Below the pieces are notes generated by a model. The model worked only from the letters and a program-made list of their open reading frames with translations, did no database searches and had not been told where the DNA came from. A stretch of DNA of 51,355 nt from Parcubacteria group bacterium CG10_big_fil_rev_8_21_14_0_10_36_14. GTDB taxonomy: Bacteria; Patescibacteriota; Patescibacteriia; GCA-002772895. Shown in pieces: positions 35,645 to 50,180 of this stretch; the first letter of the stretch is position 1; the number at the start of each line of letters is the position of its first letter. The stretch is from the NCBI GenBank assembly GCA_002772895.1, contig PFCS01000042.1, forward strand, positions 51,538 to 102,892. The letters are read 5' to 3'. A program made the position numbers and the translations under genes.

Positions 35645-36346
35645 TTATTCTAATAATTTATCTATCAGTTGCTTAAATGTTTCTTTTGGTATGGCGCCTT
35701 CTACTCGTATCGGTTTGTCCTCATATCCTTTTTTTATGAAAAAGAATGTCGGCGTTCCGCGCACGTTATTATTCAACCCTGCGGATAAATCCGCTTCTAT
35801 ACTTTTTAAATAACGTTTTTCGCTAACGCAGGACCAAAATTTATTTTCATCAATAGCAATTTGTTTAATTGCTTTTTGTGGATCAATATCCGATTGATAA
35901 AGTTTGTCATGGAGTTGCCAAAATGCGCTTTGTTCATTTGCGCATTTGCCAATTAAAGCAAGCGCGCTTGATTCCGGATAAAGCTCATCAATCGGAAATT
36001 CTCGGTAAATAAAATTTATTTTATCTTGGTATTGCAACATCATTTCGCGGGCAATACTTGAAACATCTTTTGAAAATGGGCAGGAAAAGCTGGCAAATTC
36101 TATAATTGTAAGCTCCGGCAAGTCTGCGCCAAAGGCTGGCGCATCCATATCTATAATTTCTCTTGCATTATATTTTTGTTCTGTGGCATTCGATTTAATC
36201 GCGGAAAAGCTCCCACCCTCTTGTATAGAGATTGCCCCGGTTTTTATTTGAAAATAATATCTGCCAACTTGAATTAAAAAAATTACCAATCCAAGAATAA
36301 GCAAAATACTAAGGAGCTTTAAAATAAATTTTGCGCTAGAATTCAT
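35645..36346 (-). CDS. DsbA-like membrane-anchored thioredoxin-fold protein, CPFS active site
   Basis: This 233-residue protein has an N-terminal membrane anchor (ILKLLSILLILGLVIFLIQVG). A Thioredoxin_4/DsbA domain follows: LTIIEFASFSCPFSKDV, INFIYREFPI, the inserted helical part with CANEQSAFWQLHDKLYQ, and the cis-Pro loop RGTPTFFFIKKG. The active site is C-P-F-S where the family has C-P-x-C, so only one catalytic Cys remains. That favours an isomerase- or glutathione-like monothiol reaction, or loss of oxidase activity. It lies upstream of the Cys-rich pilin on the same strand, suggesting that protein as substrate. Confidence 0.85.
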   Translation of the reverse strand: MNSSAKFILKLLSILLILGLVIFLIQVGRYYFQIKTGAISIQEGGSFSAIKSNATEQKYNAREIIDMDAPAFGADLPELTIIEFASFSCPFSKDVSSIAREMMLQYQDKINFIYREFPIDELYPESSALALIGKCANEQSAFWQLHDKLYQSDIDPQKAIKQIAIDENKFWSCVSEKRYLKSIEADLSAGLNNNVRGTPTFFFIKKGYEDKPIRVEGAIPKETFKQLIDKLLE

Positions 36347-36372: not shown

Positions 36373-36378
36373 TATACT
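36373..36378 (+). promoter_or_regulatory. Extended -10 promoter giving a leaderless start
   Basis: TGC-TATACT (the -10 hexamer at 36373-36378 with an upstream TG) ends 9 nt before the ATG at 36388, so transcription should start at or next to the A of ATG. No -35 is evident. Confidence 0.5.
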
Positions 36379-36387
36379 TATAATAGT

Positions 36388-36504
36388 ATGAAAAAAATTA
36401 GAGCCGAAAAAAGAGAAGAGAAAAGACAAAAGAAAAAAGGTCACAAAGTGTCAGGTGGCAGAGTTCGGGCATTAGCAAGGTTAATAGAGGATAAGGCAAA
36501 GTAG
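36388..36504 (+). CDS. 38-aa very basic microprotein
   Basis: ATG 36388 to TAG 36502 encodes 38 residues. The first half is almost entirely charged (KKIRAEKREEKRQKKKGHK); the rest reads VSGGRVRALARLIEDKAK. No SD is present, but an extended -10 box predicts a leaderless mRNA, as for secG next door. The composition suggests RNA or ribosome binding. I do not recognise it as a known ribosomal protein. The short length leaves some doubt. Confidence 0.5.
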   Translation: MKKIRAEKREEKRQKKKGHKVSGGRVRALARLIEDKAK

Positions 36505-36558
36505 TAAACAGATGATGAATACGAGAATGTTCTGAGATTTTATCTCTCTGGACAAGTA

Positions 36559-36587
36559 TTGACAAATATAGCCGAATATGCTATACT
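36559..36587 (+). promoter_or_regulatory. Promoter of secG, leaderless
   Basis: TTGACA (36559-36564), 17-nt spacer, TATACT (36582-36587). Only 8 nt separate the -10 box from the ATG at 36596, the distance to the transcription start itself. Confidence 0.75.
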
Positions 36588-36595
36588 ATTGATAT

Positions 36596-36820
36596 ATGAA
36601 CGTGAAATTCATCATAAATATAGTGCAAATTGTTTTAGCGATTTTTTTAATTATTGCTATTATTTTGCAGGCTCGCGGTTCCGGACTTGGCTCTGCTTTT
36701 GGTGGAGACAATATGGTTTTCAGAACAAAGCGCGGAGTTGAAAAAATTCTTCATACTATTACTATTGTTTTGGCCATTATCTTTCTTGGCCTCTCTCTCG
36801 GTTTAATTTTTATAAAATAA
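36596..36820 (+). CDS. secG: Preprotein translocase subunit SecG
   Basis: This 74-residue protein has two membrane helices (about 4-24 and 52-72) joined by the SecG loop ILQARGSGLGSAFGGDN-MVFRTKRG. It is an accessory subunit of SecYEG in the cytoplasmic membrane. Length is normal. It has a consensus promoter with no room for a 5' leader, so translation must start on a leaderless mRNA. Confidence 0.93.
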   Translation: MNVKFIINIVQIVLAIFLIIAIILQARGSGLGSAFGGDNMVFRTKRGVEKILHTITIVLAIIFLGLSLGLIFIK

Positions 36821-36829
36821 AATTCAAAG

Positions 36830-36909
36830 TATTACGAAGTAAGAGGATAGCCATATGTCGCAAAGCGACACGATATTATTCGTAATTCATAATTCGTAAT
36901 TTTTTTTGT
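36830..36909 (+). other. Intergenic hairpin element upstream of the peptide-binding protein
   Basis: A perfect hairpin TGTCGC-AAA-GCGACA is flanked by reiterated words (ATTACGAAGTAAGAGG; TTCGTAATTCATAATTCGTAAT). It belongs to the same group as the elements before hup, infB, comEC and rplT. Confidence 0.5.
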
Positions 36910-38736
36910 GTGCCTCAGAAGATATACCAATTTTTATTAAATATTTATAAGGAGGTAAAAAATCGCCTCGCTTATATTAAGAATGTCAAAAGACGAATAA
37001 AGATGGTAAACGTTGAAAAAAAAGCTATTTTAGATTTATTCAAAAGAAAGCGTTTTCCTCGTCCATCACAATTTCGTTATTTGCCTCGTTTTTTAAATAA
37101 AAAAGAAAAAACTTTTTTGGTTATTTTTTCAATACTGACTTTCTCGGGTATCGTTGGGCTTGTATCTCTTTTGTATTTCAATAATACCGTAGAAGTAGCT
37201 GCGCGCGGAGGCGAATATACCGAAGGTATTGTTGGCTATACGCGTTTTATTAATCCTCTATACAGTCAAAATAACGAAGTTGATAAGGATTTAACAGCTC
37301 TTATTTATTCCGGACTTACAAAAAGAAATGAGCGATTAAACATGGTCATGGATTTGGCAGAGAGCTACGAAGTTAATGAAGAAGAGACAATTTATACTTT
37401 CAAATTAAAAGAAAATATACTTTGGCATGATGGCAAATCATTTACCGCTGATGACATAGTTTTCACGATTAACGCCATAAAAGACCAAAATTATAACAGT
37501 CCGTTACGAACGAGCTGGTCAGCCGTAGAGGTTACCAAGATTAATGATTTTTCGGTTCAATTTAAATTAAAAAAATCTTTTGGCAATTTTTTAGCTCTTA
37601 CTACTGTTGGGATTTTGCCAAAACATATTTGGGAAAAAGTCCCTGTTGCTAATATTAATCTTGCAGAGGCCAATAATAAACCGGTTGGAACAGGACCTTA
37701 CAAGTTTAAATCATTTACAAAAGATAAGGTTGGTGCGATAAAAGCATATGAACTTATAGCAAACGAAAAATATTATGGTGAGAAACCAAATTTGGAAAAA
37801 CTTATATTAAAATTTTATCCAGAATACATTTCTGCGATAAACGCACTGGATAACAGACAGATAGATGGCTTAGCCTTTGTTTCAACAGAGGGGATGAAAG
37901 ATTTGAAATTAAGAGGACGCCTCAATTTTTATGATATTCGTCTTCCGCAATATACCGCTTTATTTTTTAATGAGGGCAACAACGTTATATTAAAGGATAT
38001 CAACATAAGACAAGCATTAGCTTTGGCGATAGATAGAAAAAGAATTGTCAAAGAAGCGCTTTTAGAAGATGGCGCTCTTATAGAAAGTCCGATTCTTCCA
38101 GGATATTTTGGGTTGGAAGAAGATACTTCTCATTTGGTACATAACGAAGCAGATGCGCAAAAAATTTTAGTAGATGATGATTGGGTACTGAAAGATGGTA
38201 ATAAATACAGAATAAAAGGAACTACACAATTGAAAATAGTTTTAACTACAATAGAAAAGGGACAAAATGTAAAAGCAGCAGGAATTATAAAAGAAAATTG
38301 GGAAGCAATAGGCATCCAAGTTGAATTAAAAATTATTTCAACTTCAAATTTGAATGTTCTTTTAACCGATAGAAGTTATGAGGTTTTTCTTTTTGGACAA
38401 ATGTATGGAACTGATTTAGACCCATACGCTTATTGGCATAGTTCCGCAATAAAATATCCAGGATTAAATCTTGCCGGATACGGAGAGCGTAAAGCAGATG
38501 CTCTTCTAGAACAGGCAAGAAAAACAGTTGATAAGGTTGTAAAACAACAAAAATATCAAGAATTTGAAGCGTTGTTAGTCGAAAATTTTCCAGCTATATT
38601 TTTATGGGAACCAAAGTATAATTATTTGATTGATAAAAAAATAAAAGGACTTAAGATTAATAATCTCGTTACTCCATCAGATAGATTTACAAATCTTTTC
38701 TCAGCTTATATTAAAACAAAACGCATATTTAGATAA
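36910..38736 (+). CDS. Membrane-anchored peptide-type solute-binding protein (SBP_bac_5)
   Basis: The open frame from GTG gives 608 residues; ATG 37003 (577 aa) is an equally possible start. A basic cytoplasmic N-terminus (about 90 residues) precedes one membrane helix (FLVIFSILTFSGIVGLVSLLY). A full family-5 extracellular binding domain follows: YTRFINPLYSQNNEVDKDL, LIYSGLTKRNE, DGKSFTADDIVFTI and VGTGPYKFKSF. A transmembrane anchor replaces the usual lipobox. No permease or ATPase genes are adjacent, so it is an orphan here; peptide capture feeding PepF is a guess. Confidence 0.85.
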   Translation: MPQKIYQFLLNIYKEVKNRLAYIKNVKRRIKMVNVEKKAILDLFKRKRFPRPSQFRYLPRFLNKKEKTFLVIFSILTFSGIVGLVSLLYFNNTVEVAARGGEYTEGIVGYTRFINPLYSQNNEVDKDLTALIYSGLTKRNERLNMVMDLAESYEVNEEETIYTFKLKENILWHDGKSFTADDIVFTINAIKDQNYNSPLRTSWSAVEVTKINDFSVQFKLKKSFGNFLALTTVGILPKHIWEKVPVANINLAEANNKPVGTGPYKFKSFTKDKVGAIKAYELIANEKYYGEKPNLEKLILKFYPEYISAINALDNRQIDGLAFVSTEGMKDLKLRGRLNFYDIRLPQYTALFFNEGNNVILKDINIRQALALAIDRKRIVKEALLEDGALIESPILPGYFGLEEDTSHLVHNEADAQKILVDDDWVLKDGNKYRIKGTTQLKIVLTTIEKGQNVKAAGIIKENWEAIGIQVELKIISTSNLNVLLTDRSYEVFLFGQMYGTDLDPYAYWHSSAIKYPGLNLAGYGERKADALLEQARKTVDKVVKQQKYQEFEALLVENFPAIFLWEPKYNYLIDKKIKGLKINNLVTPSDRFTNLFSAYIKTKRIFR

Positions 38737-38761
38737 ATCTCAGATTTTAGATTTATAGTAC

Positions 38762-38843
38762 GCCTGAGTGGTGAAACTGGTATACACGCATGATTCAGGT
38801 TCATGTGCCGTAAGGCGTGAGGGTTCGACTCCCTCCTCAGGCA
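38762..38843 (+). tRNA. tRNA-Leu (anticodon CAG)
   Basis: An 82-nt class II tRNA. The acceptor GCCTGAG pairs with CTCAGGC, the discriminator is A and no CCA is encoded. Anticodon stem CATGA/TCATG encloses loop TTCAGGT, giving CAG (reads CTG). A long variable arm (GCC-GTAA-GGC) fits tRNA-Leu. It lies 23 nt before rnj on the same strand and is perhaps co-transcribed. Confidence 0.95.
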
Positions 38844-38866
38844 TTTAAGATAATTGATTAATTTTT

Positions 38867-40609
38867 ATGGTAGAAAGAAAAAAAATAAACAAAAGACCTA
38901 GACGACAAAGAATACAAAGACCATTTGATAAAAAAAATATTGAAAATATCAAAAAACTGCGTATTATTCCTTTGGGCGGATTAGAAGAAATTGGTAGAAA
39001 CTGTACCCTTTTTGAATATGGCGATGATATTGTCATAGTCGATATGGGACTCCAGTTTCCCGAAGAAGATATGCCGGGGATTGATTACATAATTCCCAAT
39101 TTTGATTACTTAAAAAATAAAAGTAAAAAAATTAAAGGTATAATCATAACTCATGGTCACTATGACCATATTGGGGGAATACCTCATCTAATGGCAAAAA
39201 TTGGAAACCCAATAATTTATACAGCCCCCCTTACCGCCGGTATAATCAAAAAAAGACAAGAAGAGTTCCATGATGCGCCTCCTCTAAAAATACAAACTGT
39301 AAAAATAGGAGATACGATAAAGCTCGGAGTTTTTACTTTTGAGCCGTATCATATAAATCATAATATTTTTGATGCTTTTGGCGTAGCTTTGGATACCCCT
39401 TTGGGTTATATCATCACGACCGGAGATTTCAAATTTGATTTTACTCCTGTAAATGACGAACCGGCAGATCTTACGCAAATTGCGATGTATGGAACAAAAA
39501 AAGTTTTAGTGCTTATGTCGGATAGCACAAACGCTGAAAGTCCTGGTTATCAAATTTCCGAAGGCGAAATAAATCATGATATGGACAAAATTTTTGAAGA
39601 TGCGAAGAGCCGAATTATTATTGGTACATTCTCATCTCTTTTAACTCGTGTTCAACAGCTTATTTCTTTGGCGGAAAAGTATAATAGACGCGTTCTGATT
39701 CAAGGCAGAAGTATGAAGAGTAATATTGAGATTGCTCATAGCCTCGGATATATGAAAGTAAAACCACACACGATCATAGAAGAGAAAGATTTTAAAAATA
39801 TTCCGGATGAAAAGCTTATCGTTATTTGTACCGGAGCGCAGGGTGAAAAAAATGCCGTCTTAATGCGCGTAGCAAATAATGAACACCGTCTTATAAGAAT
39901 ACAAAAAGGAGATACTATTGTTTTTTCGTCTTCTGTAATTCCCGGCAATGAAAGAACGGTTCAACACCTGAAAGACACTCTTGTTCGTCATGGAGCAAAA
40001 GTTATTCATTATCAAATGATGGATGTTCATGCTGGAGGTCATGCCAAGCAAGAAGACTTAAAATTAATGATGCGTCTTATAAAACCGGAATATTTTATTC
40101 CAATTCATGGAAACAGATATCTTCTTGAAATGCATGGAAATTTGGCAGAGAAAACCGGCATACCGAGAGAAAAAATATTTATCGCTTCAAATGGTCAGGT
40201 TATAACCTTTGATAAACGTGGCGGACGACTGACGCAGGAAAAAGTTCCGAATGATTATGTAATGATTGATGGGCTCGGTTATGCCGATTCAAATGAAGTG
40301 GTGCTTCGCGACAGAAGACAGCTGGCAGAAGATGGAATGTTCGTTGTTATTGTTACGATAGACACAAAAACTAGCGAACTTATCGGCAATCCTGACATTA
40401 TTTCGCGTGGGTTTGTTTATTTAAAAGAACATAAGCCACTAATTGAACAAGCCAGAACAAAAGTTAAGCTTTTATTAAAAGATACCGACCCTGCTTCGCC
40501 GGCATTTGAGGATTATCTAAAGAATAAAATAAGGAATGAAATTGGACAATTTTTATGGAAAAGAACAAAAAAACGTCCAATGGTTTTGCCGGTGTTAATA
40601 GAGGTTTAA
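38867..40609 (+). CDS. rnj: Ribonuclease J
   Basis: This 580-residue metallo-beta-lactamase/beta-CASP nuclease has 5' exonuclease and endonuclease activity on RNA. After a very basic tail (residues 1-25) come RIIPLGGLEEIGRNCTLFEY, the metal motif THGHYDHIGGIPHL and MSDSTNAESPGYQ. IQGRSMKSNIEIA, DVHAGGHAKQED and IPIHGNRYLL follow, then the C-terminal domain. All metal ligands look present. It complements RNase Y. A strong terminator follows. Confidence 0.96.
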   Translation: MVERKKINKRPRRQRIQRPFDKKNIENIKKLRIIPLGGLEEIGRNCTLFEYGDDIVIVDMGLQFPEEDMPGIDYIIPNFDYLKNKSKKIKGIIITHGHYDHIGGIPHLMAKIGNPIIYTAPLTAGIIKKRQEEFHDAPPLKIQTVKIGDTIKLGVFTFEPYHINHNIFDAFGVALDTPLGYIITTGDFKFDFTPVNDEPADLTQIAMYGTKKVLVLMSDSTNAESPGYQISEGEINHDMDKIFEDAKSRIIIGTFSSLLTRVQQLISLAEKYNRRVLIQGRSMKSNIEIAHSLGYMKVKPHTIIEEKDFKNIPDEKLIVICTGAQGEKNAVLMRVANNEHRLIRIQKGDTIVFSSSVIPGNERTVQHLKDTLVRHGAKVIHYQMMDVHAGGHAKQEDLKLMMRLIKPEYFIPIHGNRYLLEMHGNLAEKTGIPREKIFIASNGQVITFDKRGGRLTQEKVPNDYVMIDGLGYADSNEVVLRDRRQLAEDGMFVVIVTIDTKTSELIGNPDIISRGFVYLKEHKPLIEQARTKVKLLLKDTDPASPAFEDYLKNKIRNEIGQFLWKRTKKRPMVLPVLIEV

Positions 40610-40647
40610 AATCTAAATTTTTCAATCAATAGTTTCTAACTTACAAA

Positions 40648-40684
40648 TTTTAGAAACCCTGCATTGCGGGGTTTCTAAAATTTT
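40648..40684 (+). terminator. Strong terminator of rnj
   Basis: A 12-bp stem TTTTAGAAACCC (40648-40659) with GGGTTTCTAAAA (40669-40680), then TTTT. The trpS -10 box starts right after it. Confidence 0.85.
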
Positions 40685-40686
40685 GA

Positions 40687-40692
40687 TAATAT
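40687..40692 (+). promoter_or_regulatory. -10 box of trpS, leaderless
   Basis: TAATAT (40687-40692) ends 8 nt before ATG 40701. No good -35 is visible because that position falls in the terminator stem. Confidence 0.5.
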
Positions 40693-40700
40693 AAGAATAT

Positions 40701-41711
40701 ATGACGGTAAAAAAACAATCTCAGCAAATCATCTATTCCGGGATTCAGCCGACCGGCCTGCTTCATATTGGCAATTATTTTGGCGCGCTGAAAAATTTTG
40801 TCGTATTACAAAGTCAATATAAATGTTATTTTACTATCGTTGATTTGCATTCTCTTGCTACAAACTTTGATCCGAAAGAGAAACCTAAACAAATTTTATC
40901 TTTAGCGATGGATTATTTGGCGCTTGGGCTTGATCCGAAAAAATGTACAATTTTTGTTCAGTCGCATGTGCCGGAGGTAACAGAGCTTGCTTGGATTTTT
41001 AATTGTATTACACCGGTAAAAGAGTTGGAACGTATGACGCAGTTTAAAGACAAAGCGGTTCATCAAAAAAAGAATGTGAATATGGGACTTTTTGATTATC
41101 CGGTTTTACAAGCCGCGGATATTTTACTTTTTAAATCAGGGTTAGTGCCAGTTGGCGAAGATCAAGCTCAGCATATTGAACTTACTCGCGATATTGCCAA
41201 ATGGTTTAACGCTCGTTTTGGCGAAACATTTCCTTTGCCCGAAGCGCTCCTTACGGAGTCGCCAAGAGTTATGAGCCTGTCAGATCCTTTTAAAAAAATG
41301 AGTAAAAGCATGGGGGAAAAATCTTATATTGCGCTTACAGATGATAGCAAAATCATAAAAGACAAGATTTCTAAGGCCGTGACAGAACCGTCTGGTATAA
41401 TTGATGAGAAAAAAATAAAAGATAATCCTGGGATGATGGGAGCGTATAATCTTTTAGAGATGTTGCGTCTTTTAGGAAATAAAAAACAATACGACAGATT
41501 TAAAAAAATAAAAAAAATAAGTTATAAAGATTTGAAAGAAGCCGTAGCTCACGAACTTGCCAATCATTTTGAGCTTTTTAGAAAACACAGGGCAGTTCTC
41601 CAAAAAAACGAAGGAAAAGTTCAAAAGATTTTGGAAGCCGGCGCTAAGAAAGCGAGAATAGAAGCATTGAAAACAATAGAGGATGTTAGAAAGAGAGTAG
41701 GGATTAGATAG
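40701..41711 (+). CDS. trpS: Tryptophanyl-tRNA synthetase
   Basis: This 336-residue class I synthetase has the HIGH-type motif in YSGIQPTGLLHIGNYFGAL, DLHSLATNFD, the GEDQAQHIELTRDIA segment and KMSKS in DPFKKMSKSMGEKSY. Length is normal. It is read from a probably leaderless mRNA. Two small SD-bearing genes follow at 41744 and 42009. Confidence 0.96.
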   Translation: MTVKKQSQQIIYSGIQPTGLLHIGNYFGALKNFVVLQSQYKCYFTIVDLHSLATNFDPKEKPKQILSLAMDYLALGLDPKKCTIFVQSHVPEVTELAWIFNCITPVKELERMTQFKDKAVHQKKNVNMGLFDYPVLQAADILLFKSGLVPVGEDQAQHIELTRDIAKWFNARFGETFPLPEALLTESPRVMSLSDPFKKMSKSMGEKSYIALTDDSKIIKDKISKAVTEPSGIIDEKKIKDNPGMMGAYNLLEMLRLLGNKKQYDRFKKIKKISYKDLKEAVAHELANHFELFRKHRAVLQKNEGKVQKILEAGAKKARIEALKTIEDVRKRVGIR

Positions 41712-41743
41712 TTTATTTAAAAACATGAAACAAGGAGGAAAAA

Positions 41744-41941
41744 ATGAAAGCGAAAGAGATCACACCAAGAGAAGTTAGTATATTGGCTCTTTTTAAGCAG
41801 AGATTATATAACCCTACAAAAGAAGATATACTGGTCGTTGAAAATGACTTAAAGGAGATGGGTGTATCAATAGAAGTAGAGAGGATACTAAAATTAATGT
41901 TGAAAGAGGCTCAAAATAAAATAAATAAAAAAATCGAGTAA
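41744..41941 (+). CDS. Small hypothetical protein (65 aa), paralog of the next gene
   Basis: The start ATG has AAGGAGGAAAAA directly upstream. The product is helical and charged (KEITPREVSILALFKQRLY; DILVVENDLKEMGVSIEVE). Its N-terminal core xIxxxEVSILAxxxQ matches ISGLEASILAYYAQ in the gene at 42009, so the two are probably distant paralogs. No known family. It trails trpS by 32 nt. The terminator overlaps its stop codon. Confidence 0.65.
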   Translation: MKAKEITPREVSILALFKQRLYNPTKEDILVVENDLKEMGVSIEVERILKLMLKEAQNKINKKIE

Positions 41942-41957
41942 AACGCTCGGATTTTTT
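41934..41957 (+). terminator. Terminator overlapping the stop of the 65-aa gene
   Basis: TCGAG (41934-41938) pairs with CTCGG (41946-41950), then ATTTTTT. The stop codon TAA lies in the loop. Confidence 0.6.
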
Positions 41958-42008
41958 GTATATTGTATTTTTTTGTGCTAACATAAGTTTAGTCCTTTGG
42001 AGGGAAAA

Positions 42009-42233
42009 ATGAGAAAAATTAGTGGACTGGAAGCGAGCATTCTGGCATATTATGCGCAATACGCAGAGTTTATAGAACGCGATAATGAAAATTTGGAGGA
42101 TCGATTGGGTGTAGAATCCCGTAAAATATTGAGAGAAATGAGAAAGATTTGGAGAGGAAAAAAAATTAAAAAAAGTGTATCAGGAATGTCCGCGCAGGCC
42201 ATTTGGGATTGGGCAAACAAAAAAACCGAGTAA
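42009..42233 (+). CDS. Small hypothetical protein (74 aa)
   Basis: I start at ATG 42009, preceded by GGAGGG; the frame is open four codons further to a TTG. The product is basic and helical (MRKISGLEASILAYYAQYAEF; VESRKILREMRKIWRGKKI) and related to the preceding small gene in its first ~20 residues. A TTGTAT-N17-TAACAT promoter may lie at 41956-41984. Its function is unknown. Confidence 0.65.
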   Translation: MRKISGLEASILAYYAQYAEFIERDNENLEDRLGVESRKILREMRKIWRGKKIKKSVSGMSAQAIWDWANKKTE

Positions 42234-42249
42234 AATACTCGGTTTTTTT
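42222..42249 (+). terminator. Terminator overlapping the stop of the 74-aa gene
   Basis: AAAACCGAGTA (42222-42232) pairs with TACTCGGTTTT (42236-42246), then TTT. The stop codon is inside the hairpin. Confidence 0.8.
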
Positions 42250-42250
42250 A

Positions 42251-42680
42251 ATATTCAGGTAAACAAATAAGCCGAATTTTGTTCCCATTATTCGTCAGTT
42301 GACGGAGATGGGGGTGATTATCTATCTAGACTTTGCATTACTGCAAAGTTCGAGCGGCCTACCATTTCCCTTGCGGGAACCTTGGCCTTGCACCGGGCAG
42401 GGTTTACCGTCCTCGGCTGTCGCCAGCCGGGAAGAGAAGTAGCAATTTCGTAATATACGAAACACACCTTCTAACTTTTCACATTTGGCTCCCGAAGGAG
42501 CTTTAATCGTCTCTGTGGCACTTTCCCTAAATTTCATAAATGAAAATTTCTCGCGAGAGGTAATTTCCATATATTTATATTGGTCGACGTTATCGACTGC
42601 CCATAATTCTGTTAAAGAAATGGTGTTCGGACTTTCCTCTCCCGACAAGTCGGGAGTAACCACCTTGCTTACCTGAATAG
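42251..42680 (-). ncRNA. rnpB: RNase P RNA (bacterial type A-like)
   Basis: On the minus strand the conserved 5' P4 block GAGGAAAGTCCGAACACC occurs near 42640. The distal conserved block AGATAGATAATCACCCCC lies near 42320 and ACAAAATTCGGCTTAT near the 3' end. The ends pair as P1 (ATTCAGGTAA near 42680-42670 with TTACCTGAAT near 42252-42262). Length is about 430 nt, slightly longer than E. coli (377). This RNA is the catalytic part of RNase P, which trims tRNA 5' ends. The exact ends are approximate. Confidence 0.93.
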
Positions 42681-42722
42681 ATACAATATAGCACATTTTA
42701 GTTTTTTTGTCAAGTGCCTGCC

Positions 42723-42751
42723 TTGAAATTTTAGTTAAATAATGGTAATTT
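42723..42751 (+). promoter_or_regulatory. Promoter of the glycan cluster, leaderless
   Basis: TTGAAA (42723-42728), 17-nt spacer, TAATTT (42746-42751). Eight nt separate it from ATG 42760, the same distance as in secG. An upstream in-frame ATG (42742) would lie before the transcription start. Confidence 0.55.
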
Positions 42752-42759
42752 GGAAGTGT

Positions 42760-44172
42760 ATGAAGATGCGATTATTTTTTACTACAATTCAGTTGCCGGT
42801 AGATTATGTAATGTTGGTTTCCGCTGCCCTGGCGTCTTATTTTATCCGCTTTGGATCAGCCTATGCGGATTTGGAACCGGCTGTTTCCATCATTCCATAT
42901 AATTGGTATTTTTTATTATCTTTTACCATTCCTCTAGTATGGCTTTTGATATTTGCTTTAAACGGTTTATATAAGATAAAAGAAAGAAAATTTTTTGATG
43001 ATATCCCAAAAATTATTTTTGCCTGTTCAACCGGGATAGTATTTGTTATTGCTCTTATATTTTTCAAGCGCGAATTTTTTGCTTCACGTTTTATTATTTT
43101 AGCGGCATGGGTATTATCTATTGTTTTTGTTTCGTTTGGGAGAATAATAATAAAATTTATTTATTACTTATTCAAGAAAAAGGGGATAGGTGTTTTACGA
43201 GTGGCCGTAATTGGAAGCGGAAAAGCATATGACGCCATAAAAAATGAATTTTTAGAAAATCCGGTTTTAGGAAGAAAAACAGTTGCTTTTTTTGTTGTTC
43301 TTGATGAAATGGCAAAGTATGCTTTAAAAAACTTAAAGTCAGAAAAGAAGCTTGATGAAATAATTTATGCTGGTATTCCAACAAGAGATGCTCATATTGA
43401 GCTGTTAAGGTTTTGTGAAGAAAATAGAATCAATTTTAAATATAGCGCGGATTTTTTTTCAACCACTTTGAAGAATATAGAAATGACTACGGTTGCCGGC
43501 ATACCCATGGTAGAAGTAAAAAGAACTCGTCTTGATGGCTGGGCAAAAGTATATAAAAGATTTTTTGATATTATTGGTTCCTTTTTTTTGATAATATTAT
43601 TTTTTCCAATAATGCTTGTGGTTGCGATTGCTATAAAATTTGATAAATCAGCTCCGGGTCCCATTTTTTGGTCGCATCTTGATGATGGCAAAAAAGCTAA
43701 GAGAATCGGAGAAGATGGTAAGCCATTTAATTATTTTAAATTTCGTTCAATGAAAACCAATACTCATAATATGAGATACGAAGAGTTGGCGGGACTTAAT
43801 GAACGACTAGGTACGCCAATGGTAAAAATAAAAAACGATCCTCGTGTCGGTAGGGTCGGAAAATTTATTAGACAGTATAGTTTGGATGAATTACCGGAAT
43901 TTTTTTTAGTCTTTAAGGGAGACATGAGTTTGGTTGGACCTCGTCCGCATTTACCGGAAGAAGTTTCAAGTTATAGCGGACACCACAAACACATTCTTTC
44001 AATTAAACCCGGGATAACCGGATTAGCTCAGATTTCTGGCAGAGCTGACCTTGGTTTTGAAGAAGAGGTAAAGCTTGATAAATATTATATGGAAAACTGG
44101 TCGATGTGGATGGACTTGTATATTTTACTCAAGACTCCATTTGTTGTTTTGAGTAAAAAGGGAGCATATTAA
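42760..44172 (+). CDS. Polyprenyl-phosphate sugar-1-phosphate transferase (WbaP/WcaJ type)
   Basis: This 470-residue membrane enzyme transfers a sugar phosphate to undecaprenyl phosphate, the first step of a surface glycan. Four N-terminal membrane helices and a Rossmann-like middle part (LRVAVIGSGKAYDAI) lead to the catalytic bacterial sugar-transferase domain. That domain contains YKRFFDIIGSFFLIILFFP, FKFRSMKTNT, RQYSLDELPEF, SLVGPRPHLPEEV and KPGITGLAQISGRADL. The start is chosen from the promoter spacing; ATG 42742 would add 6 residues. It heads a run of three glycosyltransferases. Confidence 0.9.
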   Translation: MKMRLFFTTIQLPVDYVMLVSAALASYFIRFGSAYADLEPAVSIIPYNWYFLLSFTIPLVWLLIFALNGLYKIKERKFFDDIPKIIFACSTGIVFVIALIFFKREFFASRFIILAAWVLSIVFVSFGRIIIKFIYYLFKKKGIGVLRVAVIGSGKAYDAIKNEFLENPVLGRKTVAFFVVLDEMAKYALKNLKSEKKLDEIIYAGIPTRDAHIELLRFCEENRINFKYSADFFSTTLKNIEMTTVAGIPMVEVKRTRLDGWAKVYKRFFDIIGSFFLIILFFPIMLVVAIAIKFDKSAPGPIFWSHLDDGKKAKRIGEDGKPFNYFKFRSMKTNTHNMRYEELAGLNERLGTPMVKIKNDPRVGRVGKFIRQYSLDELPEFFLVFKGDMSLVGPRPHLPEEVSSYSGHHKHILSIKPGITGLAQISGRADLGFEEEVKLDKYYMENWSMWMDLYILLKTPFVVLSKKGAY

Positions 44173-44184
44173 ATTAGGTATTAT

Positions 44185-45267
44185 ATGAAAATAGCCTTAA
44201 TTCATGATTATCTATCCCAGCAAGGAGGAGCTGAGAAAGTTTTAAAAACGTTTACCGAGATTTGGCCGGAAGCGCCGATTTTTACTTTATTTTATGATGA
44301 GGAAAAAATGGGCAAAGAGTTTCATGGAACAAAAGTTATCACATCTCCGCTTCAAAAGGCGCCCAGTATAAAAAGCTATTATCAGTGGTATTTGCCTTTT
44401 ATGCCTTTGGCGACAGAGAGCTATGACTTATTGGGTTATGACGTTGTTTTATCTTCCACCTCAGCTTTTGCCAAAGGGATTTTAACGCGTCCGGGAAGCA
44501 CGCATTTTTCGTATTGCCATACTCCGACTCGTTATCTTTGGAGCGAGACCCATTCTTATGTTAGTGAGTTAAATATTCCGAAACCGATTAAATGGGTGCT
44601 ACCTCCGGTTTTAAGCAAATTACGCCTTTGGGATAGATCGGCTGCCGACAGAGTTGATTATTTTATCGCCAATTCTGATGCAGTTGCAGAACGTATTAAT
44701 AAATATTATCATCGCAGAAGCGAGGTTATATATCCACCGATAGAAACTGACAAATTTTATATAAGTAAGCCAGAAGATTTTTATTTAATTGGCGGTCGGC
44801 TAGTAAGCTATAAACGTTATGACGTGGCAATACAAGCATTTAATAAGCTCGGTATCAATCTTTATATTTTTGGCGAAGGGCCAGCGAGTGAATATTTGAA
44901 AAGTATTGCCAAGCCGAATATAAAATTTTTAGGGAAAGTAGGCGAATTGGTAAAACAAGAGCTTTTTAGCAAGTGCCTTGCTTTTCTTCATCCGCAAGAA
45001 GAGGATTTTGGCATTACAGCGGTTGAAGCGATGGCATCAGGCAGGCCGGTTATCGCATATCCAAAGGGCGGAGCGCTTGAAACGGTTGTTCCAGGAGTAA
45101 CCGGAGAGTTTATCGATGAACAGGCGTGGGAAGATATAGTAGGAGAAATAATTAGATTCAAACCGGAAAAATATAATTCACAGACAATTCGAGAACACGC
45201 TAAAAAATTTGATACGAAAATTTTTAAAGAAAAAATTTGCGGATTTATTAATGAGAATTTAAAATAA
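44185..45267 (+). CDS. GT4-family glycosyltransferase
   Basis: This 360-residue GT-B enzyme begins IALIHDYLSQQGGAEKVL (acceptor-side Gly loop). Its donor site reads GEGPASEYLKSIAKPNIKFLG, followed by the EX7E-type region HPQEEDFGITAVEAMASGRPVIAYP. It is probably cytoplasmic or membrane-associated and adds a sugar to the lipid-linked product of the upstream transferase. It starts 12 nt after that gene without an SD. Donor and linkage are unknown. Confidence 0.9.
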   Translation: MKIALIHDYLSQQGGAEKVLKTFTEIWPEAPIFTLFYDEEKMGKEFHGTKVITSPLQKAPSIKSYYQWYLPFMPLATESYDLLGYDVVLSSTSAFAKGILTRPGSTHFSYCHTPTRYLWSETHSYVSELNIPKPIKWVLPPVLSKLRLWDRSAADRVDYFIANSDAVAERINKYYHRRSEVIYPPIETDKFYISKPEDFYLIGGRLVSYKRYDVAIQAFNKLGINLYIFGEGPASEYLKSIAKPNIKFLGKVGELVKQELFSKCLAFLHPQEEDFGITAVEAMASGRPVIAYPKGGALETVVPGVTGEFIDEQAWEDIVGEIIRFKPEKYNSQTIREHAKKFDTKIFKEKICGFINENLK

Positions 45268-45290
45268 TTTTTTATTTATTAAAAATTATT

Positions 45291-46388
45291 ATGATGCATA
45301 ATCCTAATAAAGAAAAAAATATTTGCATAGATGCAAGAGCGCTATTGGGCTCTGGCGGAATTCCACAATATACCAGGCACCTGATTAATAATCTCAATAG
45401 TGAAAATAAAAAAATATATCTTTTTTGCAACTCTTTGCATCGCCTTAAAGAATTTGAGAGCAGATTTTTAAAAGTTTTTTTTCGAGCGCCAAATAAATTA
45501 TTTAATCTTAGCTTACTTTTATTCGGTTTTCCCAATATAAATAAGATGATTGAAAAACGCATTAAAAATAAGATAGATTTATTTTTGTTGCCTAACATAA
45601 ATTTTTGGAAAAGCAAGGGAGATAAAAAAATCGTCATTGCTCATGATTTATCTTTCGCGATTTGTCCAAAATTTTTCAATTTACGTGATCGTATTTGGCA
45701 TTGGATAATAAATCCTAAAAAACTTTATAAAAATTCAGATTTAATAATAGCCGTATCAAATAATACCAAAGAAGACTTAATAAATATTTTTGGGATAAAC
45801 CCTCAAAAAATAAAAGTTGTTTATCCGGGAATAAGCATTGATGCAGGCGAACTCCAAAATAGAAAGGGGAATTATATACTTTATCTTGCCAATCTGGAAC
45901 CAAGAAAAAATATTTTAGGGCTTATTTCGGCTTATGAAAAATGTAATACAGGATTAGATCTTTATATAGCAGGAACAGGAAAGCATAAAAAAATAATTAA
46001 AAAGAGGATTACTAAAAGTGATAAAAAAGATAAGATAAAAATGGTTGGGTATATTAGGGAGAGCGATAAAGCCAGACTTATTTACGAATCTCAACTTTTT
46101 GTTTATCCTAGCTTTTACGAAGGGTTTGGCTTTCCGCCTTTAGAAGCTCAGATTTTGGGAGTGCCGGTTGTTGCCAGCTCTACATCTTCTATGAGCGAAG
46201 TTTTGGGAGATAGCGCGCTTTTGGTCAATCCCTATAATATTAATGAAATATCCAAAGCGATGGAAGATGTTCTAAATAATTTAGAATTAAAAAATAGATT
46301 AATTGAAAAAGGCTGGGAGAATGTAAAAAAATATAGCTGGGAAAAATGCGCCAGGGAAGCGGGAGAAATAATAAATTCATTTTTATGA
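45291..46388 (+). CDS. GT4-family glycosyltransferase
   Basis: This 365-residue GT-B enzyme starts with CIDARALLGSGGIPQYTRHL. The central ILYLANLEPRKNILGLI and the EX7E-type site FVYPSFYEGFGFPPLEAQILG place it in GT4 (mannosyl/rhamnosyl-like). ATG 45291 is followed at once by a second ATG; either may start. It is notably AT- and Lys-rich compared with the preceding GT. It overlaps the next GT gene by ATGA, so the two are translationally coupled. Confidence 0.9.
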   Translation: MMHNPNKEKNICIDARALLGSGGIPQYTRHLINNLNSENKKIYLFCNSLHRLKEFESRFLKVFFRAPNKLFNLSLLLFGFPNINKMIEKRIKNKIDLFLLPNINFWKSKGDKKIVIAHDLSFAICPKFFNLRDRIWHWIINPKKLYKNSDLIIAVSNNTKEDLINIFGINPQKIKVVYPGISIDAGELQNRKGNYILYLANLEPRKNILGLISAYEKCNTGLDLYIAGTGKHKKIIKKRITKSDKKDKIKMVGYIRESDKARLIYESQLFVYPSFYEGFGFPPLEAQILGVPVVASSTSSMSEVLGDSALLVNPYNINEISKAMEDVLNNLELKNRLIEKGWENVKKYSWEKCAREAGEIINSFL

Positions 46389-47539
46389 AAATAATTATTG
46401 ACGCCAGGTTTTTTGGGACAGAAACCGGTATTGGCAGATATGTAAAGGAGGTTGTAGAAAATTTAGAGCAGATTGATAAAACCAATCAATATGTTATTTT
46501 TTTATCGTCAAAAAATTGGGATTTATATAACCCAAAAAATATAAATTTTAAGAAAAAAAAAGTTGATCTAAATTGGTATACATTAAAAGAACAATTGTTT
46601 TTGGGCAAATATATAGATGAAGAAAAGGCTGATATTGCATATCTCCCGCATCTTAATATTCCGTTTTTTTTGAAGACACCTTATGTGATGACTGTCCATG
46701 ATCTTATACTAAAACATTTTAAATCAGTGCGCGCCAGCACCTTGGGTCCGCTAAAATTTTATATAAAATATTTTTTTTATAATTTTATTTTGAGTCGAGG
46801 AGTTCGGCGGGCAAGAAAAATTATTGCCCCAACATATTTTGTAAGGAACGAAATAATTAAAGAGCTTGGAGTAGACCCGGATAAAGTGCGTGTTGTTTAC
46901 GAAGGTCTTTCTGCATTGCCACGAAACATTGATTTAGGCAAAAATTTTCTGCGCGACAAAGGGATTTTATCTCCCTATATATTATATGTAGGCAATGCCT
47001 ACCCTCATAAAAATTTGGATTGTTTGATAGAAGCGTTTCATAAAATAAAAAAAGAACAATCTGATTTACAATTGGTTTTGGTCGGCAAGCGAGATTATTT
47101 TAGTAAGCGGTTGGAAGAAGAATCTAGAAAAAAATATTCACAATTTAATATCAAATATCCAAAAGATATTTTATTTTACGGATACGCCAGCGATGAAGAG
47201 CTTGTGACGCTATACAAATATGCAAAAGTTTATGCCTTTCCTTCGCTAATGGAAGGATTTGGATTGCCACCCTTAGAGGCGCTTTCATTTAATTTGCCCG
47301 TTGTCTGTTCCGACATTCCGGCTTTACATGAAGTCTTGGGAAATGCGGTTTTATATTTTAATCCTTATAATGTTGAGGATATAAAAGAGGTTTTAAAAAA
47401 ATCTTTGATAGGATATAGTACTGACGCTAATGTGAACACTTTGCTTGCGAGATATCAATTTAAAAAAACAGCAGAAGAATATTTGGAAATTTTTTATAAG
47501 AATGTTAATATTAATAAAAAAGACACAAGGAGAAAATGA
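46385..47539 (+). CDS. GT4-family glycosyltransferase
   Basis: This 384-residue protein starts at ATG 46385 (MKIIIDARFFGTETGIGRYV), which overlaps the previous stop as ATGA; the longer open frame lies inside that gene. GT4 features: VGNAYPHKNLDCLIEAF, LVLVGKRDYFSKRLEEE and YAFPSLMEGFGLPPLEALS. It is similar in layout to the preceding GT, so the two may be an old duplication. It ends with TGA, overlapped by the first small gene. Confidence 0.9.
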   Translation: MKIIIDARFFGTETGIGRYVKEVVENLEQIDKTNQYVIFLSSKNWDLYNPKNINFKKKKVDLNWYTLKEQLFLGKYIDEEKADIAYLPHLNIPFFLKTPYVMTVHDLILKHFKSVRASTLGPLKFYIKYFFYNFILSRGVRRARKIIAPTYFVRNEIIKELGVDPDKVRVVYEGLSALPRNIDLGKNFLRDKGILSPYILYVGNAYPHKNLDCLIEAFHKIKKEQSDLQLVLVGKRDYFSKRLEEESRKKYSQFNIKYPKDILFYGYASDEELVTLYKYAKVYAFPSLMEGFGLPPLEALSFNLPVVCSDIPALHEVLGNAVLYFNPYNVEDIKEVLKKSLIGYSTDANVNTLLARYQFKKTAEEYLEIFYKNVNINKKDTRRK

Positions 47540-47790
47540 TGAGTTCTTTTAAAGAAGTCTCTATTAGCGCCGAAATAATTTTTAAAGAATTTTGCGGATA
47601 TATACATAGTGTAAAAGATCAAGAATATATAGCGCTTCTTTTAGCTCGTATTTATAGTTCGGAGACATCTGCCATAGTTCCCGAAGTATCAATTTATTGG
47701 GTATTGCCTTTTCGTTGGATGTTTTTTGGAAAAAAAATTGGACTACCCAAAGAAGATTTTTTAAAATTAATTTATAGCCCGAATCTGTAA
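47539..47790 (+). CDS. Small hypothetical protein (83 aa), member 1 of a three-gene family
   Basis: ATG 47539 is 6 nt after AAGGAG; the adjacent ATG at 47536 would be too close. No known family is recognised. The protein has hydrophobic patches (YIALLLARIYSS; YWVLPFRWMFFG) and a C-terminal GKKIGLPKEDFLKLI that resembles GKNKNITKEEWLKIL in the next gene. It follows the glycosyltransferase with 1-nt overlap. Confidence 0.6.
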   Translation: MSSFKEVSISAEIIFKEFCGYIHSVKDQEYIALLLARIYSSETSAIVPEVSIYWVLPFRWMFFGKKIGLPKEDFLKLIYSPNL

Positions 47791-47801
47791 GGAGAAGAAA
47801 G

Positions 47802-48137
47802 ATGGCAAGAAAAGAAGGAAGTTATTTTTGCTGTACTGTAGATGACCTTTTCCAATTAATTAAGGATATCGCAGGATTTGAACGTTGGAAAAAGCAGGAT
47901 AAAATAGTTTTTAGAACAGCAATTGACGACACATACGAAGATAATGAACTTTCTGTTTTATATGCTTCGTTTTCTTTTTCTGCGCGGGTTCAACAAGCGG
48001 TAAAAATAGTATTAATGGGAAAAAATAAAAATATCACAAAAGAAGAATGGTTAAAAATTCTTGTAAAAGAGTGGGGAGAAGAATGGGGATTTTCTTGGAA
48101 AAACAAGAATAAAGAATTTCTTAAAAAGATATTATGA
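47802..48137 (+). CDS. Small hypothetical protein (111 aa), member 2
   Basis: AAGGAG precedes ATG 47802 by 7-8 nt. The N-terminal GSYFCCTVDDLFQLIKDIAG and the C-terminal half VQQAVKIVLMGKNKNITKEE-W line up, at equal spacing, with member 3. Trp- and Lys-rich end. No signal peptide. It overlaps the following gene by ATGA. Function unknown. Confidence 0.65.
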   Translation: MARKEGSYFCCTVDDLFQLIKDIAGFERWKKQDKIVFRTAIDDTYEDNELSVLYASFSFSARVQQAVKIVLMGKNKNITKEEWLKILVKEWGEEWGFSWKNKNKEFLKKIL

Positions 48138-48427
48138 TGGGTCCCTACAGAGAGCCTGACGGATTCTTTTGTTCCGCAGAAGGACTTTTAGAAATATTTT
48201 TTGTCCTTGAAGGAGATGGTATTCTGAGACATAAAAGTTCTTTAATAAATATCGTAAAAATTGTATATGGAGAAATGATTGAGTTTGATTTTCCTTTTTT
48301 TATTATCCTGATTTTAAGTAATATAAAAATGCAAAAGTTTTGGCAGCTTATAAGTTTTAGTAAAGGGCGCGGAATTCTAAAAAGAGATTGGTTCATGGCG
48401 ATAGAAAAAGTTTTTATAGGTGGTTGA
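48134..48427 (+). CDS. Small hypothetical protein (97 aa), member 3
   Basis: It starts at ATG 48134 (overlapping the previous stop) or the adjacent ATG 48137. No SD of its own, so translation is coupled. DGFFCSAEGLLEIFFVLEGD and MQKFWQLISFSKGRGILKRD match member 2 in pattern. A central hydrophobic run (FDFPFFIILILSNI) could be a membrane segment or a buried helix. It ends with TGA inside a terminator hairpin. Confidence 0.6.
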   Translation: MMGPYREPDGFFCSAEGLLEIFFVLEGDGILRHKSSLINIVKIVYGEMIEFDFPFFIILILSNIKMQKFWQLISFSKGRGILKRDWFMAIEKVFIGG

Positions 48428-48445
48428 TTTTAACCGCCTTTTTTG
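48419..48445 (+). terminator. Terminator overlapping the stop of member 3 and the smpB promoter
   Basis: GGTGGTT (48419-48425), loop GATTTT, AACCGCC (48432-48438), then TTTTTT. The stop codon TGA lies partly in the stem. Confidence 0.75.
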
Positions 48446-48452
48446 ATACATT
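48424..48452 (+). promoter_or_regulatory. smpB promoter embedded in the terminator, leaderless
   Basis: TTGATT (48424-48429), 17-nt spacer, TACATT (48447-48452). Six nt separate it from ATG 48459. The -35 box lies in the hairpin of the upstream terminator. Confidence 0.55.
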
Positions 48453-48458
48453 ATTCTC

Positions 48459-48905
48459 ATGGACAAATCACTATCTGAAAATAAAAAAGCATATCATGAT
48501 TACGAAATACTGGAAAAATACGAAGCCGGTATTGTTTTGTATGGATTTGAGGTGAAAGCGGTAAGAAATGGTAATATGAGCTTAAAAGGCGCATATGTAA
48601 CTTTTCATAATAATGAGGCCTTTCTCACAGGCTCTTACATCGGTAAATATAAACCAGCAGGCGGACTATCGGATTATGAGCCCGAACGTTCAAGAAAGCT
48701 TTTACTTAAAAAGCGTGAAATTCTCTATCTTAAGGGAAAAAGCGAAGTAAAGGGCTTGACAATCCTGCCCCTTTTAGTGTATACTAAGGGAAGCAAGGTA
48801 AAGATTGAGATAGGGATAGGAAAAGGAAAGAAACAGTATGAGAAAAAAGAAATTAAGAAAAAGAAAGATATTGAGCGTGATATCAAAAGAACTTTGAAAT
48901 ATTAG
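48459..48905 (+). CDS. smpB: SsrA-binding protein
   Basis: This 148-residue protein binds tmRNA and guides it into stalled ribosomes. Motifs: NKKAYHDYEILEKYEAGIVL, GFEVKAVRNGNMSLKGAYV, the KRKLL-like SRKLLLKKREI segment and LPLLVYTKGSKVKIEIGIGKGKKQYEKK. The C-terminal Lys-rich tail that enters the mRNA channel is present. It sits 24 nt upstream of ssrA, its partner. No SD is seen. Confidence 0.95.
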   Translation: MDKSLSENKKAYHDYEILEKYEAGIVLYGFEVKAVRNGNMSLKGAYVTFHNNEAFLTGSYIGKYKPAGGLSDYEPERSRKLLLKKREILYLKGKSEVKGLTILPLLVYTKGSKVKIEIGIGKGKKQYEKKEIKKKKDIERDIKRTLKY

Positions 48906-48929
48906 CTTTATATAGCTTATAACTCATTA

Positions 48930-49314
48930 GGGGATGCTAGGCATCGATGGGAATATAAGCAATATGTGCAAGTCGGGGTGAGCACCCCGTAAACAGCTCA
49001 ACCGTACAAGTGCAAACTTAGTACAAAGAGCCAAAAGCGTTTTAGCTAATGCTTTTGCGCCAAGGCTCGCAATGGCTGTCGCTTAATAGCAATAGCCCAT
49101 CCGCTCGGTTGATTCTCGATAAGCCGAATCCGGGTGTCATATTTCGAGATAGGTAATAAGGGTTTGTTCAGCCTGATTTACCAAAACACAAATTGAACTT
49201 TGCGATTGGTTATTTCGCCTACTTTTTAACCGATTGCGAGAAACCAAGTGGGCTAAGCTTGTAGATTGTATTGTGTATTATTTTCAGACGCGGGTTCGAC
49301 TCCCGCCATCTCCA
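48930..49314 (+). ncRNA. ssrA: tmRNA
   Basis: A 385-nt one-piece tmRNA. The 5' GGGGATG pairs with 3' CATCTCC, discriminator A (no CCA encoded), and the T-arm is GGGTTCGACTCCC. The tag frame ends GCA ATG GCT GTC GCT TAA TAG (49069-49089). Read back from the stop it opens at GCA 49012 or GCC 49030. From 49012 the tag is ANLVQRAKSVLANAFAPRLA-MAVA (24 residues). Pseudoknot-forming segments lie on both sides. It works with SmpB upstream. Confidence 0.95.
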
Positions 49315-49372
49315 TTTGTTTTTGAAAAATTCGAAGATAGATGGAGATGATTAATTAATCAAATAAATCAAC

Positions 49373-49981
49373 ATGAGGATTTCGCGCAAAAAGCGTCCGG
49401 AAAAACCGCAAATAAGATTTAAATATAACGAGGGGATAAGAACTCCCCGTCTTAAAATTGTTGATGATGAAGGAAATTTTTTAGGTGAAATGGATACGCG
49501 TGATGCTTTACGCATGGCAGAAGAGCAGGGAAAGGATTTGATAGAAATCGTCCCAAAAGGTGACTTGCATATCGCAAAAATTACTGATTACGGAAGATTT
49601 AGATATCAAAAAGAAAAAGAAATAAAAAGACAAAAGGCTCAGCAAAAAAAGATCGAAGTAAAAGGAATACGTCTTTCTTCCAGAATCGGCAGACATGATA
49701 TTGATTTGCGTATTAGACAGGCACTAAAGTTTTTAGAAGATGGAGATAAGGTCAAGGTGGAACTGATGCTAAAAGGAAGAGAGAAGGGGCATCCGGATAT
49801 TGGAAGAGAAGTTTTAAATAATTTTGTAAAAGAAACTGGAGATAAAACACCGATTAAAATAGAACAGCCTGTATCCAGGCAGGGATGGAAGTTTTTCGTT
49901 ATAATTGCTCCTGGACAAAATAATTTTCAAAATAATCAAGAAAAAGCCGAAGAACAGAAAGAGGATGTTCAAGGCCTTTAA
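49373..49981 (+). CDS. infC: Translation initiation factor IF-3
   Basis: This 202-residue protein stops premature subunit joining and checks initiator tRNA. The N-domain (RFKYNEGIRTPRLKIVDDEG; DLIEIVPKGDLHIAKITDYG) and C-domain (KGIRLSSRIGRHDIDLRIRQA; VELMLKGREKGHPDIG) are intact. About 22 extra acidic/Gln/Asn-rich residues follow the domain (ending KEDVQGL). The ATG is used with no SD. It leads the conserved infC-rpmI-rplT operon. Confidence 0.96.
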   Translation: MRISRKKRPEKPQIRFKYNEGIRTPRLKIVDDEGNFLGEMDTRDALRMAEEQGKDLIEIVPKGDLHIAKITDYGRFRYQKEKEIKRQKAQQKKIEVKGIRLSSRIGRHDIDLRIRQALKFLEDGDKVKVELMLKGREKGHPDIGREVLNNFVKETGDKTPIKIEQPVSRQGWKFFVIIAPGQNNFQNNQEKAEEQKEDVQGL

Positions 49982-49991
49982 ATAAAAAAGT

Positions 49992-50180
49992 ATGGGAAAA
50001 TTAAAAACACATAAAACGGTGACCAAAAGATTTAAGGTTACCAAAACAGGAAAGGTCTTAAAAAGAAAAGCGGGACAAGGTCATTTTAATTCAAGAGAAT
50101 CAAGCAAGACAACGCGTAAAAAACGCAGAGATGTTTCAATGTCTGAAACATTGAATAAAAATATAAAAGAATTAATGTAA
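49992..50180 (+). CDS. rpmI: Ribosomal protein L35
   Basis: This 62-residue very basic protein of the 50S subunit begins GKLKTHKTVTKRFKVTKTGK, with KRKAGQGHFNSRESSKTTRK in the middle. Length is normal. It starts 10 nt after infC in the classic infC-rpmI-rplT order. Confidence 0.95.
   Translation: MGKLKTHKTVTKRFKVTKTGKVLKRKAGQGHFNSRESSKTTRKKRRDVSMSETLNKNIKELM

Follow-up and report, generated by a model that had tools for sequence, protein, structure and literature searches.

U at position -1, scarce Shine-Dalgarno motifs, and a candidate leaderless minority at the predicted start codons of a patescibacterial genome

How start codons are chosen in bacteria without Shine-Dalgarno (SD) motifs is an open question, and it is raised by a 51,355-nucleotide (nt) stretch of the genome of Parcubacteria group bacterium CG10_big_fil_rev_8_21_14_0_10_36_14 (bases 51538-102892 of contig C42; hereafter, the window). 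A preliminary description of the window had noted that secG, a 38-amino-acid (38-aa) open reading frame (ORF), trpS, the head gene of a glycan cluster, and smpB each carry a -10 box ending 6 to 9 nt before the ATG, with leuS coming close, and had taken this spacing as a sign of leaderless mRNAs and of a ribosome that readily accepts them. The six sites were all located in the sequence as described. The analysis of the whole genome (0.93 Mb, 65 contigs, 36% GC, 64% AT) led us to another reading, which we consider likely: the predicted start sites rarely use an SD motif and are marked by a U at position -1, with leaderless genes and SD-led genes each forming a minority. The organism belongs to the Patescibacteria, a large and mostly uncultured share of bacterial diversity; the window's RNase J is nearest to those of Candidatus Magasanikbacteria (71% identity) and Uhrbacteria, and next to those of Falkowbacteria. 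We take the class to be ABY1 (of the Magasanikbacteria/Uhrbacteria/Falkowbacteria type). Genes were called on the fetched genome contigs with a codon-pair model blind to the -10 box, the SD motif, and the base at -1, and the calling threshold used gave 816 genes, with 409 putative operon-head genes. A start was counted as unambiguous when it was an ATG without a competing start codon nearby (n = 228, 90 of them in internal genes).

T (U in the mRNA) was found at -1 in 90% of the 228 unambiguous ATG starts, with 87% in the head genes and 94% in the 90 internal genes, compared with 32 to 34% for other ATGs, both internal in-frame and intergenic. This signal far exceeds that of any other position around the starts; A at -3 (0.45) and at -6 (0.50) showed no peak above the neighboring positions. 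The class relatives had T at -1 in 61 to 85% of starts at 36 to 64% GC, against backgrounds of 2 to 45%, and their SD motifs were at or near background. Base composition as the cause was ruled out by the class genome of 64% GC, which keeps the rule against a background of 2%. The preference could not be extended to the whole phylum, where 20 samples, all of them small, ranged from 9 to 88% of ATG starts and some were SD-heavy. The rate of ATG codons was also lower at the beginning of genes, with 1.2% in codons 1 to 21 versus 2.0% in the gene interior. What the start sites share in general is T at -1, not leaderlessness; the predicted starts are AUG codons surrounded by A/T-rich sequence, and U directly precedes about 90% of the unambiguous ones.

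A strict SD motif was present in 75 of 792 starts (approximately 9%), and the frequency of SD motifs among the unambiguous starts was that of the background (8% versus 7%). The two signals largely excluded each other: T at -1 was found in 580 of the 717 non-SD starts, but in only 7 of the 75 SD starts (Fisher P = 4e-36), 58 of which had A or G at this position. The preliminary description had proposed checking the SD-free starts against the anti-SD of the 16S rRNA; the scarcity of SD motifs was borne out by this check, and the anti-SD was nonetheless intact. The 3′ end of the 16S rRNA, GGATCACCTCCTTT, contains the complete anti-SD, and its loss was therefore rejected as the cause of the missing SD motifs. 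Genes of the SD type, when defined slightly more loosely, were shorter and less typical in codon usage (P = 2e-7), and the strict ones were mildly clustered, forming 13 adjacent pairs versus 6.5 (standard deviation, 2.4). Most of them are probably later imports that have kept the signals of their donors. The window has SD-type genes starting at 277, 6703, 21658, 22632, 28285, 33264, 41744, 42009, 47539, and 47802. The earlier statement that none of the genes has an SD holds for the listed genes but not for their region, since AGGAG or GGAGG precedes the ORFs at 41744, 42009, 47539, and 47802 at the usual distance.

Leaderlessness does not explain why SD motifs are missing, since internal operon genes, which cannot be leaderless, lack SD motifs to the same degree as head genes. 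On the other hand, a class of leaderless genes does appear to exist. A -10-like hexamer (TANNNT, at least four of six matches) was found 6 to 9 nt before the ATG in 93 of the 409 head genes, compared with about 63 hits in dinucleotide shuffles. The raw TANNNT counts at distances of 0, 3, 6, and 9 nt were raised by in-frame stops, since TAA and TAG both open with the TA of the motif, and plain counting was dropped as a partial stop-codon artifact in favor of the stop-free motif TA[TC]NNT and of strict -35/-10 pairs. With the stop-free motif, head genes were enriched at 6 nt (19 versus 8.8 expected; z score, 3.7) and at 8 nt (21 versus 9.1; z score, 3.8), but not at 7 or 9 nt, and internal genes were at background. 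The same scan gave another peak in head genes, with the -10 box 18 nt before the ATG (21 versus 9.0; z score, 4.2). Adding a strict -35 box (at most one mismatch from TTGACA, a spacer of 16 to 18 nt, and TANNNT) separated the signal from the noise, with 15 head-gene promoters at 6 to 9 nt (1.4 expected), 9 of them at exactly 8 nt, 11 at 10 to 19 nt (3.3 expected), and 60 at 20 to 39 nt (6.2 expected). Internal genes showed neither the near nor the 20- to 39-nt peak, and their counts at 6 to 9 nt were 2 versus 0.8 in this genome and 1 versus 0.9 in the class relatives. The near peak in head genes recurred in these relatives (12 versus 1.9 expected), including their subset with at least 45% GC (9 versus 1.9 at 8 nt). 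The genome-wide tally of distances that had been suggested as a check thus came out above chance for the stop-free motif and for the strict pairs, whereas most single matches of a -10 box alone are expected at random.

The normal spacing between a -10 box and the transcription start, which these distances had been said to equal, is calibrated by two RNA genes in the window. The promoter of the transfer-messenger RNA (tmRNA) gene (TTGAAA-N18-TATAAC; -10 box at 48918-48923, plus strand) is followed by 6 nt and then by the 5′ G at 48930, and that of rnpB (42685-42713, minus strand; TTGACA-N17-TATATT, TG extended) lies 9 nt from the Rfam 5′ end of RNase P RNA, which makes it the looser calibration. 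By this measure, a 6-nt spacing should place the transcript start at the A of the ATG, and an 8-nt spacing should place it at -2. Purines occupy -2 in 86% of the genes with 8-nt spacing, compared with 54% overall. The 7-nt spacing, a dip in the distance distribution, would put the start on the nearly fixed T at -1, and both the dip and the purine at -2 would fit transcription starting on a purine. Terminators ending no more than 35 nt before the ATG were found in six genes genome-wide, five of which had a -10 box at 6 to 8 nt. Judging from promoter positions, the class of head genes whose promoters would have transcription begin on the A of the ATG, or about 2 nt from it at most, is real. It is a minority, not the rule, as approximately 14 to 20% of promoter-mapped head genes belong to it here and 9 to 11% in the relatives (arithmetic from net strict-promoter counts), and most head genes are predicted to have leaders of about 14 to 35 nt. 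The idea that mRNAs begin at or near the ATG is supported for head genes at 6 to 9 nt and is repeated in relatives, while the individual cases are mostly weak; leaderlessness as the rule, or as the reason for missing SD motifs, found no support.

Genes with this layout are a known bacterial class, the TA-led leaderless genes (Zheng et al. 2011, PMC3160421), and the design of our test was the same as theirs. As in the TA-led genes (PMC3160421), TANNNT lies about 12 bp (counted from its first T) upstream of the start, SD motifs are absent, and the signal exceeds dinucleotide shuffles in head genes only. The genes studied here differ from them (PMC3160421) in being a minority of the promoter-mapped head genes, in a genome in which SD motifs are nearly absent as well, and in showing two distance peaks. 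By the TA-led criterion for single genes, only secG and the glycan-cluster head were good examples. Text searches of an open-licence library turned up no paper describing leaderless genes or a U(-1) rule in Patescibacteria, and the leaderless minority would add a candidate lineage for leaderless translation.

The preliminary description had implied that leaderless mRNA is readily accepted by the ribosome for initiation. This implication is left unsupported by the presence of initiation factor IF3, which antagonizes leaderless initiation (review, PMC4611024): its gene, infC, lies in the window, and 187 of 192 phylum genomes had an IF3 match, so that a loss of IF3 favoring leaderless mRNA was rejected. 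An S1-like protein was found with a score under the curated rpsA cutoff, and bS21 had no match in the genome itself and only weak matches in 13 of 18 relatives. The initiator tRNA (contig C65, positions 1051-1126) has C1:A72, the GGG/CCC pairs, and A37, and its anticodon loop, CCCATAA, has C33 in place of the conserved U33. The pattern used for the initiator region matched 54 of 380 phylum genomes, and since such an exact-pattern search misses most genomes, the following counts are a sample, not true frequencies. Of the 14 class genomes matched, 11 had C33 and 3 had U33; outside the class, all 40 matched genomes had U33 and none had C33. Its presence in 11 genomes makes a sequencing accident unlikely. 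The cytosolic initiator tRNA of eukaryotes has C33 as well (PMC9023262). In both cases, the conserved U33 is replaced in the initiator tRNA alone; C33 here is found in a bacterial-type tRNA (C1:A72, GGG/CCC) and, among the matched genomes, in one class of Patescibacteria.

These features could be connected as follows. At the leadered, non-SD majority of starts, the complex of the 30S subunit with the initiator tRNA would be placed by a four-base contact, in which U(-1)-A-U-G of the mRNA meets the anticodon C34-A35-U36 plus A37 and which would stand in for the energy of SD pairing. The change of U33 to C33 may adapt the loop in the P site to initiation based on U(-1). Leaderless mRNAs would follow the leaderless route general to bacteria, in which the AUG at the 5′ end is read, and about 9% of the genes, probably for the most part later imports, would use a canonical SD and avoid U(-1). 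An extended codon-anticodon interaction between U(-1) and A37 of the initiator tRNA was reportedly described in chloroplasts by Esposito and colleagues in 2003, with a modest effect at single genes. Under such an interaction, a U immediately ahead of the AUG should be advantageous, and the initiator of this genome has the A37 that it calls for; the signal here differs from that modest effect in being nearly universal, class-wide, and exclusive with SD motifs. The full proposal that one class of Patescibacteria has largely swapped SD pairing for UAUG read by an A37/C33 initiator, keeping the anti-SD for a small and mostly imported gene set with one signal per gene, is a tentative one that we regard as possible rather than probable.

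Several observations weigh against U(-1) as a dedicated start mark and against the mechanism built on it. The starts are predictions of a codon-model caller. GTG and TTG starts showed no preference for T at -1 (12 to 19%), although these starts are few and uncertain. Nor is the preference unique, only exaggerated: T at -1 is also enriched, more mildly, in Escherichia coli (39%) and in a Bacteroides plasmid (57%); the value for a Deinococcus plasmid was 30%. T before in-frame internal ATGs was not avoided, contrary to what a model in which UAUG is sufficient predicts for the inside of genes; that model was rejected, and since U(-1) cannot suffice, other features must select the starts. That U(-1) would pair with A37 is taken from the prior work mentioned above (Esposito 2003), and a role of C33 is a conjecture, with three class genomes having U33.

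A different account of the same starts would follow the Bacteroidia, in which the anti-SD would be sequestered and an A-rich, Kozak-like context with low structure would pick the starts, T at -1 being secondary and compositional. In Flavobacterium johnsoniae, initiation is SD independent and AUGs are depleted near the starts (PMC8710568), and in Bacteroidia bS21 takes part in sequestering the anti-SD (PMC9976891), along with bS18 and bS6. The genome resembles these bacteria in its intact but seldom used anti-SD, its A-rich leaders, and its lower number of ATGs around the starts. Its signal, however, is U at -1, without an A peak at -3 or -6, and bS21, weak at best in the relatives, has no match here; moreover, approximately 9% of the genes form a coherent minority with well-placed SDs. 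We find the Bacteroidia-like account rather unlikely. Somewhat less probable still is that AT-rich DNA produced the -10 boxes near the ATG by chance and that ordinary leaders start from promoters further upstream. The excess of 93 genes over about 63 shuffled hits is small enough for most single matches to be random, the distances of 0, 3, 6, and 9 nt are inflated by stops, and a scan of the region for consensus promoters gave promoter-like sites that were not above shuffles (47 versus 53.7). Chance would not be expected to confine the stop-free enrichment at 6 and 8 nt to head genes, yield 15 strict pairs where 1.4 were expected, repeat the near peak in relatives of at least 45% GC, or set terminators beside several of these starts.

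The two remaining alternatives concern transcription starts at the ATG. If leaderless initiation were the main mode, as the preliminary description implied, it would account for the rarity of SD motifs, for several head genes at leaderless spacing, and for a near peak that is real; yet promoters at 20 to 39 nt outnumber the near ones about fourfold (60 versus 15), IF3 is present, and the internal genes, equally devoid of SD motifs, have the strongest U(-1) signal, so that we give this explanation very little credence. T before A is a preferred context for transcription initiation, and the strict leaderless candidates mostly have T at -1, which would suit a reading of this base as a signal for transcription, the -1T/+1A initiator of leaderless mRNAs, and not for translation. 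This reading is contradicted by the peak of T at -1, at 94%, in operon-internal genes, which have no transcription start there, and it was rejected as the least credible of all.

If U(-1) marks starts in this way, protein starts would be marked in an unusual manner in these bacteria, and with a nearly universal one-base signal, its exclusion with SD motifs, and a class-specific alteration of the initiator tRNA, start choice becomes directly testable. In such genomes, gene-calling software that looks for SD motifs may put starts in the wrong place, and T at -1 could be used to correct them. An SD motif without T at -1 may flag imported genes; if so, the base at -1 and the SD status together would separate native from imported starts.

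Among the individual genes of the window, secG (36596-36820, plus strand; TIGR00810) is a convincing candidate for a leaderless or near-leaderless gene. Its promoter is the best in the region, with 11 of 12 consensus matches and a TG extension, and consists of TTGACA (36559-36564) and, after N17, TATACT (36582-36587), 8 nt before the ATG at 36596, which has T at -1. In a check independent of the gene caller, the 30 secG loci of the class, including this one, had T at -1 in 25 and an SD in 1. Several of the class orthologues have TTGAC[AC]-N17-TANNNT 8 to 11 nt ahead of the ATG, which suggests that in some of them a leader exists but is very short. The putative 38-aa basic ORF upstream of secG (36388-36504, plus strand) is probably coding, because homologues, with no assigned function, were found in three other class genomes (L292-L294), one of them immediately upstream of secG. 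It is a weak leaderless candidate, with TATACT at 36373-36378 as an extended -10 box (TGCTATACT) but no -35 box, and a distance of 9 nt to the ATG at 36388, at which no enrichment was seen in this genome.

The head of the glycan cluster, a polyprenyl glycosylphosphotransferase gene (42760-44172, plus strand; TIGR03025), is a good leaderless candidate, provided that it starts at 42760. Its -35 box, TTGAAA (42723-42728), is separated by N17 from TAATTT (42746-42751), 8 nt before the ATG, and 42760 was chosen as the start because, of the in-frame ATGs at 42742, 42760, and 42766, it is the only one with T at -1. The rnpB promoter on the minus strand and the promoter of this gene on the plus strand are divergent, with starts at most about 85 nt apart (42685-42760). 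For trpS (40701-41711, plus strand; TIGR00233; T at -1), a leaderless start just past a terminator-like hairpin is plausible. The hairpin, with an 18-bp stem (40645-40683, plus strand; fold, -23.6 kcal/mol; z score, -8.6), ends 17 nt before the ATG at 40701, and the -10-like TAATAT (40687-40692) lies 8 nt before it, with no good -35 box (TTGCGG). It is likewise plausible that smpB (48459-48905, plus strand; TIGR00086/NF003843; C at -1) has no leader or a very short one, although its box is a weak match. An intrinsic terminator (48418-48445, plus strand; fold, -11.6 kcal/mol; z score, -3.6), whose T-run ends 14 nt before the ATG at 48459, adjoins the gene and, if it works, would limit the leader to less than 15 nt. 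The -35 box, TTGATT (48424-48429), is located inside this terminator and is followed after N17 by the -10-like TACATT (48447-48452), 6 nt before the ATG. In leuS (22926-25325, plus strand; TIGR00396; T at -1), TAAAAT lies 11 nt before the ATG, which is outside the 6- to 9-nt class. A divergent thioredoxin-like gene (35645-36346, minus strand), not mentioned in the preliminary description, has TATAAT 7 nt before the ATG and T at -1.

Minority SD starts are found in a small ORF at 41744-41941 (AGGAGG; A at -1), in another at 42009-42233 (GGAGG; A at -1), and in an ORF at 47802-48137 (AAGGAG; G at -1), all on the plus strand. Searches of the ORFs at 41744 and 42009 against NCBIfam gave no match. 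The runs of small ORFs at 41744-42233 and 47539-48427 contain several with an SD, and two lie directly before hairpins with T-runs. The RNase J genes in contigs labeled Lysobacteraceae (L121) and Planctomycetota (L137) encode proteins 58% identical to that of the window, which is in the Falkowbacteria-like range; these are probably misbinned or mislabeled contigs of metagenome-assembled genomes. Further downstream in the window, the stretch 48459-50617 contains smpB, the tmRNA gene, and infC, in this order, and then two small ORFs (49992 and 50270), at positions where rpmI and rplT would presumably be expected.

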